This document shows, in pieces, positions 7,273-35,492 of a DNA stretch of 38,540 nt (positions within the stretch are counted from its first letter, which is position 1; each line of letters starts with the position of its first letter). Made by a program: the position numbers and the translations under genes. Origin of the DNA: an uncultured Methanobacteriaceae archaeon (GTDB lineage: Archaea > Methanobacteriota > Methanobacteria > Methanobacteriales > Methanobacteriaceae); NCBI GenBank assembly GCA_902797085.1, contig CADBRM010000020.1, positions 1 through 38,540 on the forward strand. Direction: 5' to 3'. The notes under the pieces were generated by a model that saw only the letters and a list, made by a program, of their open reading frames with translations, did not search any database and had not been told where the DNA came from.

Positions 7273-8433
7273 ATGACGAATTACGATATTACTGTGGTGG
7301 GTGCTGGACCAATAGGTTCTACATATGCATATAAGATGGCTAAACAGGGGTATGATGTAGCCCTCTTTGATATGAAAAACAGGATAGGACAACCACTACA
7401 ATGTGCAGGTTTGGTATCAACAAACATTTGTGGTACTAAAAATCTCCCTAAACAATTTATTGACAATGAAGTAAGGGGAGCAAACCTTTACTCACCGGAT
7501 AATAATAGTATAAGGGTAGGTAAGGATAAAACAGTTGCATATGTGTTGGATAGGGTAATGTATGATAAGTACCTGTTTGATAGGGCACAAGATGCAGGTG
7601 TAGATGCACACTTGGGTGAAAGAGTATTGGATGTGGATATGGATAACACCATTATTAAAACGATAGACCGCAAATACTCATCACGACTGATAACTATATC
7701 TACAGGACCGACATGCCACACTTCAGAAAAAATGAATCCTGAAATAAAAAATGACTCCTTTCTTGGATTGCAATATACGGTTAGAACAGATAATGTGGAT
7801 ACAGATTATGTTAACCTCAGTATCAACAAGCAGTTACTTCCCGGATTTTTATGGGAAATTCCAACATCACCCTCTACTAAGAGAGTAGGGCTGTTTACTA
7901 AGGGATCATACAGGGATGCAGAAAAACTCTTAAAAAATAGATTAAACGTTAATGACAGGATTATTGAAAAACATAACGGATTGATACCAAGATTTAATTC
8001 AAAAAGAAAGATTGTTCAAAACAATACTATACTGTTGGGAGATGCGGCCGGACAAGTTAAACCTACAACCGGTGGAGGTTTAATAGCCGGTTTTACCTGT
8101 GCAGAAATTGCCAGTCTAAATTCAAACAAGATGCTTGAGGAAGAAAATAATAAATATCTATTAGACTATGAAAAACAATACCATAAAAGATATGATAATG
8201 AATTTAAAGCACAGCAAAACGTTCAAAATATAATAGAAGACATGGAAGAGGATGACTTTAATTACATGTTCAAACAGTTAAAAGAATACGATGTCGATAA
8301 AATCATATCTGAACATGGGGACATGGATAGTCAAACACCATTGCTTAAAGAATTAGTTAAAACAGGAATAATATTCAAATTAGTACCAAAAATAGGTGTA
8401 AGGAGGCTTAAAAACATATGGAAATCACTGTAG
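7273..8433 (+). CDS. FAD-dependent oxidoreductase, geranylgeranyl reductase family
   Basis: A 386-residue flavoprotein with an N-terminal Rossmann dinucleotide fold (VVGAGPIGSTYA; GAGPIG at 10-15), the conserved cysteine of the geranylgeranyl reductase family in QCAGLVS (C44), and the second FAD motif LLGDAAGQVKPTTGGGL near residue 256. Family members reduce isoprenoid double bonds in archaeal lipids or related polyprenyl groups. A second, more canonical member is at 26492-27685, so this one is a paralog that may act on another isoprenoid; the substrate is unknown. The start follows GGGATG by a few bases. Its 3' end overlaps trmG10 by 16 bases, making it the first gene of a four-gene operon. 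Confidence 0.82.
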   Translation: MTNYDITVVGAGPIGSTYAYKMAKQGYDVALFDMKNRIGQPLQCAGLVSTNICGTKNLPKQFIDNEVRGANLYSPDNNSIRVGKDKTVAYVLDRVMYDKYLFDRAQDAGVDAHLGERVLDVDMDNTIIKTIDRKYSSRLITISTGPTCHTSEKMNPEIKNDSFLGLQYTVRTDNVDTDYVNLSINKQLLPGFLWEIPTSPSTKRVGLFTKGSYRDAEKLLKNRLNVNDRIIEKHNGLIPRFNSKRKIVQNNTILLGDAAGQVKPTTGGGLIAGFTCAEIASLNSNKMLEEENNKYLLDYEKQYHKRYDNEFKAQQNVQNIIEDMEEDDFNYMFKQLKEYDVDKIISEHGDMDSQTPLLKELVKTGIIFKLVPKIGVRRLKNIWKSL

Positions 8434-9497: not shown

Positions 9498-10985
9498 ATG
9501 TTTGAAAATCTGAGAATATTAGATACCACACTAAGGGATGGTGAACAAACACCAGGAGTACTAATAACATCCAACGAAAAACTAAAAATAGCACTTAAAC
9601 TGGATGAATTGGGGGTAGATGTCATAGAAGCGGGATCGGCAATAACCTCAAAAGATGAACAGAAAAGTATTAAAACAATAACAGAAAACAACCTGAATGC
9701 AGAAATATGTAGCTTCGCAAGACCAGTAAAAATAGACATAGACACAGCAATAGACTGTGAAGTAGACAGTATTCACCTGGTGATTCCGTCATCAGACTTA
9801 CACATAGAACAAAAACTAAGAAAAACAAGGGAACAAGTAGAAGAAATGGCTGTAAATGCAACAGAATATGCAAAAAGTCACGGACTGATAGTGGAGCTCT
9901 CAACAGAAGATGCTACAAGAACAAGTATTGAAGATCTAAAACAATTATACACGAAATGTATAGATGCAGGAACAGACAGGATATGTGCATGTGACACAAT
10001 AGGATTACTAACACCAGAAAGAGCATATGACTTCTATGGGGAACTAGCAAAACTGAACATGCCTCTAAGTGTGCATTGCCACAATGACTTTGGACTTGCA
10101 GTAGCAAATACACTGGCAGCACTAAGGGCAGGAGCAACACAAGCACATGTAACAATCAATGGACTTGGGGAAAGAGCAGGAAATGCTTCATGTGAAGAGC
10201 TAATCATGGCAATAGAATCGTTATACAAAGAAGAAACACACCTCAAAACGGAACTGTTCTATGAAACATCACAATTGGTAGAAAGAATATCAGGGGTAAC
10301 ACTACAAACAAACAAAGCAATAGTTGGAGCAAATGCATTTGCACACGAATCAGGAATACATGCAGATGGGGTACTGAAAAATTCGGATACATATGAACCA
10401 ATAAAACCGGAAAAGGTAGGACATCGCAGAAGATTCATCCTTGGAAAACATGTGGGAAAACATGTTATAAGTGAAAAAATTAAGGAAACAGGAACAGAAG
10501 TAACGGATGATGAGCTAAACAGAATATTCGAAAGAGTAAAAAACCTATCCGATATGGGAAAAACGGTAACGGATGTGGACCTACAGGCAATAACAGATGA
10601 AATATTAAGCATAAACCCAGAAGACTCCCTAATACTACAGGAATACACAACAGTATCCGGTAACAAAGTAACACCAACAGCATCAGTAAAAGTAAACATA
10701 AACAACAGGGAAAAAATAGAGGCAGGTGTAGGAGTAGGGCCGGTAGATGCGGCAATAGAAGCAATAAGAAAAAGTATTGCAGATACGGCAGACATTACTC
10801 TGGAAGAATATCATGTGGATGCAATAACTGGAGGAACAGATGCACTGATTGATGTGCTGGTGAAACTCAAACACGAAGACAAGATAATAACATCAAGAAG
10901 TACGGAACCGGACATCATTATGGCAAGTGTAGAAGCATACCTCAAAGGAGTAAACAAAATACTGACCGACAAAAAAAGAAGGTAA
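9498..10985 (+). CDS. cimA: (R)-citramalate synthase (or 2-isopropylmalate synthase)
   Basis: A 495-residue member of the isopropylmalate/citramalate synthase family, which condenses acetyl-CoA with a 2-oxoacid. For citramalate synthase this is pyruvate, leading to isoleucine. The catalytic start [13 protein letters not shown] is at residues 8-20 and the metal-binding HCHND at 193-197; GERAGNA follows. Residues about 385-495 form the LeuA-type regulatory domain, so end-product feedback is likely. The segment [13 protein letters not shown] resembles the characterised Methanocaldococcus citramalate synthase more than LeuA, which has a different residue pattern there; that choice is from memory of the families. 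The ATG at 9498 is preferred over GTG 9489 because AGGTGA at 9487-9492 sits properly in front of it. Confidence 0.82.
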
Positions 10986-27829: not shown

Positions 27830-28414
27830 ATGAAAAATAAAAAAATATACAAAACTATGATTCAAGACCTCGAATTAGAATACTATGTTGAATTTCGTAA
27901 TGTTAAGTATATTCGTTATGAATTGAGAAGGGGTAAACTTCGATTGATAGTGCCTAAACGTAATAAGGATGATGTTGAAGAGTTCATACATAAAAAAGAT
28001 AAATGGCTCTATAAAAAGTTAAAAGAGTATTATGATGATGAGAAAAAATTATCCGAAGAAACTAAAAGCATGAATTTATCACAAAGGAGCATGTCTGAAT
28101 TAAAGCATATGGTTTCCCTCTTTATTGAGAAGTATGAGAAACAATTAAATGTTAAGGTAAACCGGCTTCAGTACAGGGACATGGTTCATAAGTGGGGTAG
28201 TTGTAGTAGTTTAAGGAACATAACATTATCCAGGGATTTGCGTTATTTGCCGGATAATCTTGTATCTTATATAGTTTATCACGAATTAACGCATATCATT
28301 GTATTAGCGCATAATGATAAATTTTATGAAATAATCGAAAAAGAGTTTCCGGATTATAGGGAATACGATGAGGATTTGAAATCATATATTTATTTGATTA
28401 ATAAAAATGAATGA
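27830..28414 (+). CDS. YgjP-like zinc metallopeptidase (DUF45/M48 clan)
   Basis: A 194-residue protein of the YgjP/WLM-like metallopeptidase group. The zinc motif HELTH (H151, E152, H155) is followed by a third histidine H161 (LAHN), and the upstream KWGSCSS (121-127) is the family hallmark. Related bacterial proteins sit next to type I restriction genes or act alone; the substrate is unknown. The gene is preceded by a TATA-like AATATATTAATTAG with the ATG shortly after, suggesting a leaderless or short-leader transcript. Confidence 0.88.
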   Translation: MKNKKIYKTMIQDLELEYYVEFRNVKYIRYELRRGKLRLIVPKRNKDDVEEFIHKKDKWLYKKLKEYYDDEKKLSEETKSMNLSQRSMSELKHMVSLFIEKYEKQLNVKVNRLQYRDMVHKWGSCSSLRNITLSRDLRYLPDNLVSYIVYHELTHIIVLAHNDKFYEIIEKEFPDYREYDEDLKSYIYLINKNE

Positions 28415-30812: not shown

Positions 30813-32087
30813 TTATAATTGAACCATGTCGTCTTTTATTACTTCTTTGCTTTCATCATCTACGACTACCATGTGTGTAGCACATGATAAACAAGGGTCA
30901 TATGCTCTTATTACATCAGGAGCATAGTCGTAGTGTGTTCCTTCTGTAGCCATACCCATTGTTGGAATGTTCCATGTTGTTGGTACAATACAGTTGTAGT
31001 CAGTTATGTAACCTTCTGGTGAAATTTTAGCAGTGTGTAAGTTGGTTCCTCTAGGTCCTTCTATGACTCCTACACCCAAACGGTCAGTTCCTTCCAAGGA
31101 ATATTTGGCCATTGTTTGTGCAGAAGGATCTACTTTGTCTACTAAGTCAAGAATACATTCTGCTGCATTTAACATTTCTTGTGCTCTTGCTAAATGTTGT
31201 GCTTTAACTCCAACATCATCGAATTTTCTGTATTTTTTGGCTCTTGCTCTAGGTCCTGTTTCCACAGGTGTATCGTCGTATAGTGGTATTTGTGAACATG
31301 CTGTTTTTCCAATCTTTTTAGCAGTCTTTTTGGTTTCTTTAGCAAATTCTTCGTCTTCTTGTTCGGTATATTTGTCCTCATACCAGGAACCTGGCATAAT
31401 TTCGTTAATACTCTGTAAATTAATGTTTTGTCTTGAACCATATGTATTGCTTGTAGCAAGTACCGGTTGGGCATGCACTCCTAAATCTTTAGGGAAATCT
31501 TTTGCTTCAATGTATCCTGCCATTTGTTCTACATGTTTCTCAAGTAAGCCCATTAATCCACTTATTCTTGTTTTAATTTTATTTTTGGTGTTTTTGGTAA
31601 TGTTGTGTGCCATTCCACCAATTCTGATATCGGATGGATGGATACCTTCTCCACCAATAACATCTTCAACATATTGGGCTTGTTTTCTTATTTCGGATAT
31701 GTTTTTAACTACTTGTATGTAGTCTTCTTCAGGTACAAAATCAGGTGCTACCAAAAAATGGTGTATTGCATGACTATTAATCATATGAGCATTTAAACAC
31801 ATTTCTCTAAGTATTTGTCCTGTTTTTGGTACATCAATTTTTAATGAATCATCAATAGCTTCAACTGATGCAAGTGTATGTGTAACTGGACATACTCCAC
31901 AGATTCTTTGTACTAATACAGGGGCAGATTCTGGTCTTCTTCCTAAAACCATTTTTTCTATTCCTCGTACTGGTGTTATACTGTAGTAACGTCCGGTTGT
32001 TACTATTCCTTCATCATCAACTTCTAATGATAATGTGGCGTGTCCCTCTTGTCGGGAAGTTGGGGATATAGTAATAGTTTTACTCAA
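30813..32087 (-). CDS. frhA: F420-reducing hydrogenase, alpha (large, NiFe) subunit
   Basis: The catalytic subunit of the [NiFe] hydrogenase that reduces F420 with H2. It has 424 residues. The nickel ligands are in RICGVCPVTH (C63, C66) and DPCLSCATH (C399, C402). FrhD is expected to cut after H405, releasing a 19-residue tail. The nickel site has Cys and no selenocysteine. The start is TTG at 32087, with a strong AAGGTGA ribosome-binding site at 32094-32100; the protein then opens SKTITISPTSRQEGHA like other FrhA. It is the first gene of frhADGB; a large palindrome lies just upstream. Confidence 0.94.
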   Translation of the reverse strand: MSKTITISPTSRQEGHATLSLEVDDEGIVTTGRYYSITPVRGIEKMVLGRRPESAPVLVQRICGVCPVTHTLASVEAIDDSLKIDVPKTGQILREMCLNAHMINSHAIHHFLVAPDFVPEEDYIQVVKNISEIRKQAQYVEDVIGGEGIHPSDIRIGGMAHNITKNTKNKIKTRISGLMGLLEKHVEQMAGYIEAKDFPKDLGVHAQPVLATSNTYGSRQNINLQSINEIMPGSWYEDKYTEQEDEEFAKETKKTAKKIGKTACSQIPLYDDTPVETGPRARAKKYRKFDDVGVKAQHLARAQEMLNAAECILDLVDKVDPSAQTMAKYSLEGTDRLGVGVIEGPRGTNLHTAKISPEGYITDYNCIVPTTWNIPTMGMATEGTHYDYAPDVIRAYDPCLSCATHMVVVDDESKEVIKDDMVQL

Positions 32088-32352: not shown

Positions 32353-32376
32353 TAGGAAAAAATTTTCCTATATATC
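32353..32376 (+). promoter_or_regulatory. Operator-like dyad abutting a TATA box
   Basis: TAGGAAAA and TTTTCCTA flank a 2-base spacer at 32353-32370, and the right arm runs into CCTATATATC (TATA box). Transcription would start about 25 bases later, near 32395-32400, which is where the first cassette gene begins. A repressor bound here would block the promoter. Confidence 0.5.
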
Positions 32377-32399
32377 AAAAGTAGGGAGGAAGTGATAAA

Positions 32400-32729
32400 A
32401 TCAACATACTAGGAAACTCTTTTAAGGAGAACGAATCCGATTCTGGATGGATAAAAATTACAGTTAACACGTGGAAGCCTGACGTTGGAGAACAGATAGA
32501 AGGTAAACTATTAAAAGTGAACACCACAGATAGTTGGATAATTTATGTAATAGAAACCAATGATAAAAAACGAGTAAATGTGTGGGGTACAACTTACTTA
32601 AACCAACTGATGGATGAAATAAAAGTCAATGATTACATAAGAATTACATACAATGGTCTTAAGGAAACAAAAAACAACAGACAAATGAAGAAATACAATC
32701 TGGAAAAGAAAGTGATAAATAATGAATAA
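32400..32729 (+). CDS. Small OB-like protein 1, no standard start codon
   Basis: The open frame runs from after a stop at 32382 to 32729 (about 109 residues from 32400). Its part from WKPDVGEQIEGKL to the end matches the next gene: WKPDVGEQIEGKL/WNPEVNDEIEGIL, then VNVWGTTYLNQLMD/ILVWGKTQLDALMD, then MKKYNLEKKV/MKKYELEIL. Predicted beta-rich pattern and length suggest an OB-fold-like module, which is inference. There is no ATG, GTG or TTG in frame before GTG 32517, which would delete a conserved third of the protein. A GTG at 32392 behind GGGAGG is one base out of frame. The end overlaps the next gene by 8 bases. Confidence 0.5.
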   Translation: MNILGNSFKENESDSGWIKITVNTWKPDVGEQIEGKLLKVNTTDSWIIYVIETNDKKRVNVWGTTYLNQLMDEIKVNDYIRITYNGLKETKNNRQMKKYNLEKKVINNE

Positions 32730-32994
32730 TCGAGAAAAGTTCTGGAATCCGGAGGTCAACGACGAGATAGAAGGTATACTGGTGGATAAATTGTGTGATG
32801 TGGGAAGATACAATAGTAAACTATATAAAATCCATTGTGAAGAAGGAGAAATATTGGTGTGGGGCAAAACACAATTGGATGCACTAATGGATTTAACGGA
32901 GATTGGTGATAAGATTTTATTACGTTACGTTGGATTAGAACTGGTAAATGGGTATCAAATGAAAAAATATGAATTGGAAATTTTAGATGGATAA
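32722..32994 (+). CDS. Small OB-like protein 2
   Basis: A 90-residue protein paralogous to the preceding one (shared pattern W.PEV.DEIEG.L, VWGKTQLDALMD, GDKILLRYVGL, QMKKYELE). It starts at an ATG that overlaps the previous stop (ATGAATAA) and ends overlapping the ATG of the next gene, so the three are translationally coupled. The short beta-strand pattern with alternating charged residues resembles single-strand-nucleic-acid-binding OB folds, but I cannot confirm this. Two adjacent copies could act as a heterodimer. Confidence 0.6.
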   Translation: MNNREKFWNPEVNDEIEGILVDKLCDVGRYNSKLYKIHCEEGEILVWGKTQLDALMDLTEIGDKILLRYVGLELVNGYQMKKYELEILDG

Positions 32995-33580
32995 TTTATA
33001 CGAAGAAATAATAAAACAATTAGAAGACAACAACAATGTTTTGATATACAAAGAGAATTTATATGAGGAATATGCTAAAATTAATCAGAAATATAATGCA
33101 ATTTACATCTCAACACCTAAAAAAGGTAAAACGGCATTTGAACAGATACTTAAAAAAGTAGATAACACTACAACAATTAAGAATAAAACAATAAGTGGGA
33201 TAATAGAAGAAATTAAAGATAAAACAAGGTACAAAACTTTAATAATATGTATGGATAACTTTGAACAGCTGTCTAGGCGTGAATTACAAAGTTACAAAGA
33301 ATTGGAACAAGAAAAATACATATTTTTTGTAGCAAATATTAATGAAGACAAGGAATTCATTGATAACAAGTTCTTGGATAAGTTCGTGATAGTTAATGAA
33401 ATAGAATTTAGAAGTAATCGTTCACAAAGCATAAACATTAACTATGTTATTCTTCTTCTGTTATCATTCTTAATGTTCATACTCTTTTTAAGGATACAGT
33501 TGAGTATGTTACGCTATATTGTCAGTGCTTTGTGGTTTACATTGTTAATGTATAGATCGTTTTATTATATATCAAAATAA
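32987..33580 (+). CDS. Mini AAA-like protein with C-terminal membrane anchor
   Basis: A 197-residue protein. Residues 42-49 (STPKKGKT) look like a Walker A motif with Ser in place of the first Gly; LIICMDNFEQL (85-95) looks like Walker B; YIFFVANIN (111-119) fits sensor 1. These are the core elements of an Orc1/Cdc6- or STAND-like ATPase in very compact form. Residues 152-170 and 173-192 are two membrane helices. The ATP-binding motifs are imperfect, so activity is uncertain. It overlaps the upstream OB-like gene by 8 bases and precedes the membrane gene by 7. The combination of compact ATPase and membrane tail next to small beta-proteins is unusual. Confidence 0.6.
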   Translation: MDNLYEEIIKQLEDNNNVLIYKENLYEEYAKINQKYNAIYISTPKKGKTAFEQILKKVDNTTTIKNKTISGIIEEIKDKTRYKTLIICMDNFEQLSRRELQSYKELEQEKYIFFVANINEDKEFIDNKFLDKFVIVNEIEFRSNRSQSININYVILLLLSFLMFILFLRIQLSMLRYIVSALWFTLLMYRSFYYISK

Positions 33581-33587
33581 GGATATT

Positions 33588-34193
33588 ATGAGTAAAATAA
33601 ATGAAATATTAGCTGCGGCAATATTGTACTGTTTAATATCGTACATATTGTATTTACCAAACATAGAATACGGTTTGCTGTTATCAATAGTGGGTTCACA
33701 AATAAATATTCTGCTACCCGATAATTATAAACATACATTACTGCTTTATTTACCATTAATTATGTTATCATTGTTTTATCCGGTAATATTTGTGCCAGTA
33801 GGAGTAGGTTACACAGCATCAATATTCATTTCATTACTTTCAAAAGAAGGATGTAAATTATTGCATCCTATAAGTTCCACAACATTCACCGGTCCAAAAA
33901 ATTACTTGGAAAATGATACTAAAAAGGATTATGCGGCAACAACATTTCTTGTGACTTTAGTAATAATAACCTTGCTATTGTCGTTTAACGGAATGGAAAT
34001 AGTCAATCATATAAGTGAAAGTAATGATTATAACTCCTATTTCAATAACTATGAATCAAGATATAACAATACACCTGGTGCTGTTCAGTATATTAATATC
34101 AATCCGGCATGCTGTGTTAATAAAAATATAACAACAATAAATTCAGAAAATACAACGACAACGTTGATAACAGAAATAGAAAAAAGTAATTAA
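33588..34193 (+). CDS. Multi-pass membrane protein with Asn/Thr-rich tail
   Basis: A 201-residue protein with about five hydrophobic helices (roughly 6-22, 27-44, 50-66, 67-84 and 117-133). Between the fourth and fifth helices is KLLHPISSTTFTGPKNYLEN. The last 65 residues are hydrophilic, rich in Asn, Thr and Ser, with NNT, NIT and NTT sequons and a CC pair, which suggests a surface-exposed, glycosylated tail. No family recognised, though helices 2-4 with LLPDNYKH faintly recall YdjM-like membrane hydrolases. It is the last gene of the cassette and stops 6 bases before the convergent glmU-type gene. Confidence 0.6.
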   Translation: MSKINEILAAAILYCLISYILYLPNIEYGLLLSIVGSQINILLPDNYKHTLLLYLPLIMLSLFYPVIFVPVGVGYTASIFISLLSKEGCKLLHPISSTTFTGPKNYLENDTKKDYAATTFLVTLVIITLLLSFNGMEIVNHISESNDYNSYFNNYESRYNNTPGAVQYININPACCVNKNITTINSENTTTTLITEIEKSN

Positions 34194-34199
34194 GAAGAT

Positions 34200-35492
34200 T
34201 TATTCTTCATCTTCTTTTAATTTTCTAACTATTAAATTAGTTTCAGTAGTTACTAGTGAGAAAGAATCAATGTCTTGGTAAATAACACATCCTGCGTTAA
34301 TAAAGGTACCGTTACCTATTTTTACACCAGGGTTAACACTAGTGTTAATTCCGGTTTTAACACCATCACCAAATATGGCTCCCAATTTTCGCAATCCTGA
34401 GTCTATTCTTTCATTTTTAACAGTAACTTTAACGTGTCCATCATCAAAACGGAGGTTGGCTAAATTGGTACCTGCACCTAGGTTACAGTTAACTCCAATA
34501 ACGGAATCTCCGACATATGATAGGTGGCTAACGTTAGTTCCATCCATTATAATACTATTTTTAATTTCAACAGCATTACCTACGCTAACATCATTGCAGA
34601 GACAAGCATTGGGTCTAAGATAAGTGTTAGGTCCTACATCACAATTATCTCCAATAAACACAGGACCTTGGATGTAACAGCCTGATCTTATAATACTGTT
34701 CTTACCTAAATGAACGGGACCGTGAATGGTAACATTCTCCTCTATTTCTCCCTGAATGTCCTCTTCCATTTTAGCTAAGAAATCTTGGTTACATTTAAGT
34801 AATTCCCATGGTCTTCCAACATCCATCCATGGTTCATGGGAAATAAGACCAAGAATTTCATATCCTGAATTAAGTTCTATTTCTAATGAGTCAGTAATTT
34901 CATATTCTCCACGTTCTGATAATTTTGTTTCACGAATTGCATCAAATATTTCAGTACTGAACAAGTAGATCCCAGCGTTAGCTAAGTTACTTGGAGCTTC
35001 TTGGGCAGAAGGCTTTTCGACAATTTCAATAATTTTATCATTTAACATGCTGACAATACCATAACTGGAGGGATTGTCTACTTCAATAAGTGTAAGAACA
35101 GATTTAACATCATTGCTTGTACGGGTAGCATATTTTTCAATTAAGTTTCGTATAAGATCGTAACTAACAATAATGTCTCCATTTAGCACGATAAAACTTT
35201 CATCTATATATTTTTCAGCACTTCCAATAGCGTGGGCAGTACCTAACTGTCCTTCTTGTACTGCGTAAGTAATATTAACACCAAATTCACTACCATCGCC
35301 GAAATATTCTTCTATAACTTCTTTTTTATATCCTACAACTAAGGTGATATCTTTAATACCTGCATCTCTTAATGATTCAATATTGTATTGTATTAATGGT
35401 TTTCCACCAGTAATTAACATAGTCTTTGGTCGTGTAGTAGTTAAAGGACGCATCCTTGTTCCTTCGCCTGCTGTTAGTATAACTGCCTTCAT
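34200..35492 (-). CDS. glmU: Bifunctional sugar-1-phosphate nucleotidylyltransferase / acetyltransferase (GlmU type)
   Basis: A 430-residue protein. Residues 1 to about 235 are a nucleotidyltransferase (VILTAGEGTRMRPLTTTRPK, the nucleotide-binding loop; VLNGDII). From about 245 there is a left-handed beta-helix of hexapeptide repeats (IRSGCYIQGPVFIGDNCDVG and onward), giving the GlmU-like two-domain layout of archaeal enzymes such as MJ1101. The likely role is acetylation of glucosamine-1-phosphate and UDP-GlcNAc formation. glmM lies upstream on the same strand and makes the substrate. The ATG is preceded by AGGTGACT. Confidence 0.87.
   Translation of the reverse strand: MKAVILTAGEGTRMRPLTTTRPKTMLITGGKPLIQYNIESLRDAGIKDITLVVGYKKEVIEEYFGDGSEFGVNITYAVQEGQLGTAHAIGSAEKYIDESFIVLNGDIIVSYDLIRNLIEKYATRTSNDVKSVLTLIEVDNPSSYGIVSMLNDKIIEIVEKPSAQEAPSNLANAGIYLFSTEIFDAIRETKLSERGEYEITDSLEIELNSGYEILGLISHEPWMDVGRPWELLKCNQDFLAKMEEDIQGEIEENVTIHGPVHLGKNSIIRSGCYIQGPVFIGDNCDVGPNTYLRPNACLCNDVSVGNAVEIKNSIIMDGTNVSHLSYVGDSVIGVNCNLGAGTNLANLRFDDGHVKVTVKNERIDSGLRKLGAIFGDGVKTGINTSVNPGVKIGNGTFINAGCVIYQDIDSFSLVTTETNLIVRKLKEDEE

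Follow-up and report, generated by a model that had tools for sequence, protein, structure and literature searches.

A four-gene membrane cassette of Methanosphaera with an apparent AUC or AUU start

The gut methanogen genus Methanosphaera, to which the host genome of the DNA analysed here belongs (the window, 38,540 nucleotides), carries a cassette of four plus-strand genes that matches no known system. Judged from its sequence and its orthologues, the first gene (g1) appears to initiate at AUC or AUU, not AUG. A previous interpretation of the same DNA from its letters only (the sequence-only reading) had recognized the cassette. It missed the apparent non-AUG start of g1 and the origin of the fourth gene (g4) from YdjM hydrolases. 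The features under study, with the evidence for each, are:

30813-32087, minus strand: frhA, upstream flank, divergent (synteny across Methanosphaera)
32384-32396, plus strand: Shine-Dalgarno-like sequence GGGAGGAAGTGAT of g1 (best anti-SD duplex -10.0 kcal/mol)
32400-32402, plus strand: ATC, apparent non-AUG start codon of g1 (no in-frame ATG/GTG/TTG; orthologue alignment)
32400-32729, plus strand: g1, OB-fold paralogue of g2 (aligned to g2 and to orthologues; tree; dN/dS)
32722-32994, plus strand: g2, OB-fold protein (AF2 model, pLDDT 88; weak Foldseek OB matches)
32987-33580, plus strand: g3, putative membrane-anchored pseudo-AAA+ protein (AF2 model, Foldseek, glycine-free P-loop position, hydrophobic C-terminal region)
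33110-33133, plus strand: STPKKGKT segment of g3, a Walker A look-alike after strand 2
33588-34193, plus strand: g4, probable YdjM-derived multi-pass membrane pseudo-enzyme with a sequon-bearing tail (hhalign; metal ligands lost)
34062-34190, plus strand: conserved tail at the C-terminus of g4, carrying NNT, NIT and NTT sequons (alignment)
34200-35492, minus strand: glmU-type bifunctional sugar-phosphate nucleotidyl/acetyltransferase, downstream flank, convergent (synteny across Methanosphaera)

Together the four genes span 32400-34193. Overlaps of 8 nt join g1 to g2 and g2 to g3, and a gap of 7 nt separates g3 from g4, exactly the spacing given before (8, 8 and 7 bases). The accompanying claim of one translational unit is borne out as one coupled unit, in which translation itself would probably be coupled; the weak Shine-Dalgarno sequences (SDs) of g3 and g4 in the window (-3.3 and -3.8 kcal/mol) are in keeping with such coupling. 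The left end had been placed at 32353, which is ruled out because a TAG at 32382-32384 lies in the g1 frame. A YgjP-like metallopeptidase gene is found at 27830-28411, upstream of the frh operon (PF01863, E 7e-32).

Start codon of g1

Between the stop at 32382 and the conserved OB domain, the window g1 contains no in-frame ATG, GTG or TTG, and the first canonical codon of the frame is a GTG at 32517, within the OB domain. The SD of g1 is stronger than those of g2 to g4 by duplex energy, and 7 nt separate its core from the ATC in an ungapped alignment. Orthologue codons aligned to the ATC at 32400 read ATC, ATT, TTG, GTG or ATG.

For a survey of starts, each g1 frame was traced back to its stop. 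Five species lacked any ATG, GTG or TTG before the conserved domain, and the start-aligned codon was ATC in the window and L042 and ATT in L047, L049 and L052. All five combine this absence with an SD at normal distance and a conserved coding region. Sequencing error in the window was rejected as the cause, since four further species lack a canonical g1 start. ATT is also found at similar spacing behind the SD in L038, where the sole canonical codons are 5' of the SD, in L043, with one TTG 5' of the SD and another well downstream, and in L039 and L036/L045. Canonical starts occur as TTG in L037, L040, L041 and L044, as GTG in L034, and as ATG in L033, L048, L050 and L051. Among ATC and ATT cases with readable coordinates (the L043 row used a wrong coordinate), SD duplex energies ranged from -7.3 to -15 kcal/mol, and the spacing resembled that of canonical g1 starts.

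As a control we checked 11 other genes of these loci, 137 copies in all. A canonical start near the expected place was absent in 6 of them: g2 in L033 and L034, where an upstream ATG is present; g4 in L042 and L046 and the YgjP-like gene in L046, all in loci with N-gaps or broken frames; and frhG in L037. In a tree of g3, ATG and GTG copies from sites other than the frhA-glmU interval grouped together (100/100). Parsimony on this tree gave about 3 changes between AUH and canonical g1 starts, a rough figure because the tree is poorly resolved inside the main-site group.

An alternative is that g1 is not translated from AUC or AUU at all and that frameshifting, a missed upstream start, or a dispensable g1 with drifting upstream codons explains the pattern. 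It draws on L039 and L036/L045, where an in-frame ATG is also present just 5' of the SD. We consider it improbable, given the five species devoid of any canonical start, the strong and correctly spaced SDs, the low dN/dS of g1 (0.12-0.18 for the window copy where dS was measurable), and the canonical starts in nearly all control copies.

The AUU start codon of bacterial infC is a poor initiator used for translational control. In Streptomyces, a non-canonical GTC start serves the same end in sigR (PMC5472188). g1 resembles both in its conserved poor initiator behind a Shine-Dalgarno sequence. It differs from them in being archaeal, in that some species have TTG, GTG or ATG in place of AUC/AUU, and in that no link to an initiation factor is known. 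According to a 2021 review, non-canonical events in archaea have been demonstrated in elongation and termination only (PMC8211752). We found no archaeal AUU or AUC start in the literature searched, which largely excludes subscription papers, and novelty is thus unproven; such a start in archaea has little precedent.

Folds and families of the four proteins

g1 and g2 are 33-49% identical where both align, and AF2 modelled g2 as a five-stranded barrel whose strands and single helix follow the OB order. Both results bear out the small beta-type, OB-like paralogues of the sequence-only reading. The best Foldseek matches of g2 were largely OB folds (AspRS, RPA-related, SSB, Teb1), although weak (E 0.02-0.1). 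A PDB sequence search with the OB profile gave chance-level matches only, no Pfam or NCBIfam model scored above its cut-off for g1, g2 or g3, and the best PHROG match linked one g2 orthologue to an unnamed family (E 1.6e-6). In the OB tree, g2 forms a single clade (SH-aLRT 96) and g1 mostly a single clade, which suggests that the two arose by duplication close to the base of Methanosphaera.

Outside the cassette, OB homologues occur as single genes. Several are found in a provirus-like setting, next to genes for an integrase, MCM or a nuclease, and others adjoin genes for ion channels and small membrane proteins; in genus g21, three genomes (L135, L136, L137) have an ion-channel gene and two genes for small membrane proteins as the neighbours. 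g1 and g2 share the five-stranded barrel and relatives in provirus-like contexts with the ssDNA-binding OB proteins known from archaeal mobile elements and with RPA/SSB. They differ in being a pair of divergent paralogues that is fixed within a membrane cassette of the chromosome, and their DNA binding is putative. For the replication role on which the sequence-only reading had speculated, nothing was found beyond the OB fold. Two loci hold remnants of OB pairs: L143 (3224-4017), a decayed extra pair of a g1-like gene and a broken g2, and L144 (4793-5345), where the remnants adjoin a type I specificity-like gene.

g3 had been described as a membrane-tailed mini-AAA protein with the motifs STPKKGKT, LIICMDN and FFVANI, which it indeed carries together with hydrophobic C-terminal helices. 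The AF2 model (pLDDT 86) found its best Foldseek matches among the AAA+ proteins TRIP13, ORC, RFC and MuB (E about 1e-4 to 1e-3), with TM-scores of about 0.35-0.5 that give moderate support to the fold. A PDB sequence search with the g3 profile returned chance-level matches only. In the predicted fold, MDN and N117 occupy the positions of Walker B and sensor 1. STPKKGKT, however, follows strand 2 (38-41) and not strand 1 (17-21), after which the Walker A position reads YKENLYE, with no glycines and no GxxxxGK[ST] P-loop. Within Methanosphaera, P44, G47 and K48 never change, but of the three K48 alone is kept throughout the order, and the position that follows GK is freely variable (T, V, A, N, Y, E, R, S, I). 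In the C-terminal part, W183, F184 and R190 are invariant across the order.

Thus, the AAA+-like fold and the membrane tail of the earlier description stand. The active mini-AAA ATPase was rejected because STPKKGKT lies outside the P-loop position and is not conserved. Based on the model, we take g3 to be a pseudo-AAA+ adaptor whose C-terminal region would form a hydrophobic hairpin. It shares with AAA+, ORC-Cdc6 and STAND-type ATPase domains the predicted strand-helix order, the Walker-B-like MDN and the sensor-1-like N117. Unlike them, it lacks a P-loop after strand 1 and a lid or winged-helix part and has two C-terminal membrane helices; the sequence match is weak.

g4 is multi-pass and Asn/Thr-rich at its C-terminus, as had been noted, with tail sequons at N160, N180 and N188. 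Its family became visible through sister lineages. Their g4 profile matched that of Methanosphaera at 99.3% in hhalign (E 3e-20), and sister members match PF04307 (YdjM) at E 1.8e-14 and 7.8e-14, whereas the window g4 alone stays under the Pfam cut-off (12.6 versus 29 bits, E 0.097). By this sequence route, g4 is homologous to the YdjM family. The YdjM ligand motif (T-H, D, H...GH, S-H...D) is present in all 11 sister copies tabulated. In readable Methanosphaera copies the metal ligands are essentially absent: the H3 histidine alone survives in several, the window included, and D3 is aligned in L049. The alignments therefore identify Methanosphaera g4 as a pseudo-enzyme derivative of YdjM and no longer an active member. 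Homology, membrane helices and the GCxLLYP region tie it to the YdjM/YbcI inner-membrane hydrolases (PF04307, DUF457). It differs from them in the missing H/D ligands, except for one histidine in some species, in the sequon-bearing tail, and in always standing behind g3 in the loci inspected. N180, I181, T182, T183 and N188 of the tail are invariant (alignment A6), and most sister lineages have a matching NxT/NGS tail.

In two sister copies, L087 (5737-6354) and L089 (5916-6548), the ligand motif is partly altered, with PN for PD, and L089 has KPRAWGH for HRGWGH; these are perhaps early steps of the same ligand loss. In L050 (6325-10269), g4 is followed by tandem repeats of a unit of about 2 kb that contains a PIN-domain gene, a small AbrB-like gene and an ORF copy of the g4 C-terminal tail (8109-8297 and 10081-10269).

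Distribution and history

A search with g3 gave matches in 19 of the 20 Methanosphaera genomes, and BLAST of the surrounding loci showed the order g1-g2-g3-g4 in 16 of them; the genes thus keep together in relatives, as the sequence-only reading would require. Two further genomes hold three of the genes (L046 without g1, L051 without g2), so the two OB genes need not both be present. The cassette lies between frhA and glmU, beside glmU and glmM, in 15 of the 20 genomes, a count that includes some in which the contig shows just one flank. In G001, G002 and G004 it is found at other sites, and frhA and glmU flank no cassette; G007 and G018 carry an additional copy elsewhere. Several of the copies at other sites adjoin genes for Ig-like surface proteins. 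In G003 the cassette is decaying, with g1 and g3 broken and g4 reduced to a tail remnant, and in G014 the frhA-glmU site is empty and g3 was not found anywhere in the genome. Given this decay and absence, the cassette is dispensable. All four genes are under purifying selection: pairwise dN/dS was about 0.1-0.2 in most pairs with measurable dS, reaching 0.53 in the closest pair, with many pairs saturated at silent sites. At the main site the cassette is inherited in place, and some sister loci are island-like.

With wider profiles, g3 proved patchy across the genomes of the phylum examined, being present in Methanosphaera, in the same-family genera g13, g20 and g21, and in families f2 and f3, with weak traces only in g5. 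Two longer open frames of genus g5 (G046:C31:11586-12443 and G047:C1:158766-159179; 307 and 231 aa) weakly match part of the g3 profile, at E about 1e-6 to 1e-8, and may represent a distant branch of the g3 family. In all sister-lineage loci inspected, g3 is directly followed by g4, and OB genes are missing. This arrangement indicates that g3-g4 is the older module and that the OB pair was added in Methanosphaera. Some sister pairs lie near genes for a flippase, glycosyltransferase, UDP-galactopyranose mutase, NTP-transferase or GDP-mannose dehydratase; others adjoin DNA methylases, a SIR2 protein, an integrase or Hjc.

PADLOC gave no match for g1-g4 of the window and marginal Csn2 matches to one sister-lineage g3 (E 0.004-0.03); a known anti-phage defence system was rejected on this ground. 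A viral origin of the cassette was likewise rejected after viral contig scans with g2 and with g3 found no relatives.

Possible working of the cassette

Tentatively, we picture the cassette as a low-abundance, membrane-anchored scaffold of OB and pseudo-AAA+ proteins, built on a dead YdjM module and throttled in its expression by a poor initiator. The ancestral two-gene module, as seen in sister lineages, would have paired g3, a membrane pseudo-AAA+ adaptor, with g4, a membrane metal hydrolase of YdjM type whose sequon-bearing tail would lie outside. The ancestor of Methanosphaera would have lost the active site of g4 and recruited an OB protein, of a type that archaeal mobile elements also carry, which was duplicated into g1 and g2. 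In the cytoplasm, these two may bind nucleic acid, or possibly glycan, and attach to the AAA-like domain of g3; g3 would be held at the membrane beside g4, with the g4 tail outside. Translation of the whole unit would be gated at g1, where a strong SD precedes a poor initiator (AUC/AUU in many species), and that of g2 to g4 would be coupled to it through the overlaps and weak downstream SDs. A bolder version is possible but doubtful: the conserved AUC or AUU behind a strong SD would act as a translational valve gating the coupled membrane cassette, possibly read by aIF1 or the OB proteins, and the cassette proteins, two pseudo-enzymes and two OB proteins, would make up a membrane complex of an undescribed kind.

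The scaffold might tether nucleic acid at the membrane or regulate the envelope, the latter favoured to some degree by the nearby glycan genes. Taken further, the envelope view makes the cassette a cell-surface glycan module: ancestral g4 proteins would have cleaved a lipid-linked or membrane substrate under regulation by g3, the OB pair would bind an oligosaccharide or a regulator, and the Methanosphaera form would regulate envelope synthesis beside glmU and glmM. The glycan-type neighbours of part of the sister pairs, the main site itself and the Ig-like surface proteins beside other copies speak for it, as does the published relationship of YdjM to phospholipase-C-like hydrolases and domains (PMC8557891). 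Yet the sister contexts are mixed, including methylases, SIR2, integrase or Hjc, and Methanosphaera g4 has no active site, so that we regard this fuller version as rather unlikely.

The same methylase and SIR2 neighbours in island-like sister loci, the OB homologues in mobile elements and the extra and decayed copies would suit an anti-virus defence or toxin-antitoxin-like membrane effector, with the OB pair as the sensor of foreign nucleic acid and g3 and g4 acting on the membrane. The speculative defence role in the sequence-only reading went in this direction and finds no support in the marginal Csn2 matches or in a main-site cassette inherited in place. With no convincing PADLOC match, a fixed chromosomal site in 15 of the 20 genomes, predicted active sites lost in both g3 and g4, and no relative detected in the viral contig scans with g2 and g3, such an effector seems quite improbable.

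If g1 truly starts at AUC or AUU, comparative genomics would here argue for regulated non-canonical initiation in archaea, and standard gene callers would truncate or miss g1 in these genomes. Its orthologues are natural start variants (AUG, GUG, UUG, AUU, AUC) for a comparison of start-codon strength. For gut Methanosphaera, the cassette represents a near-genus-wide trait, in which OB proteins appear to have been added to an enzyme family that persists as a pseudo-enzyme.
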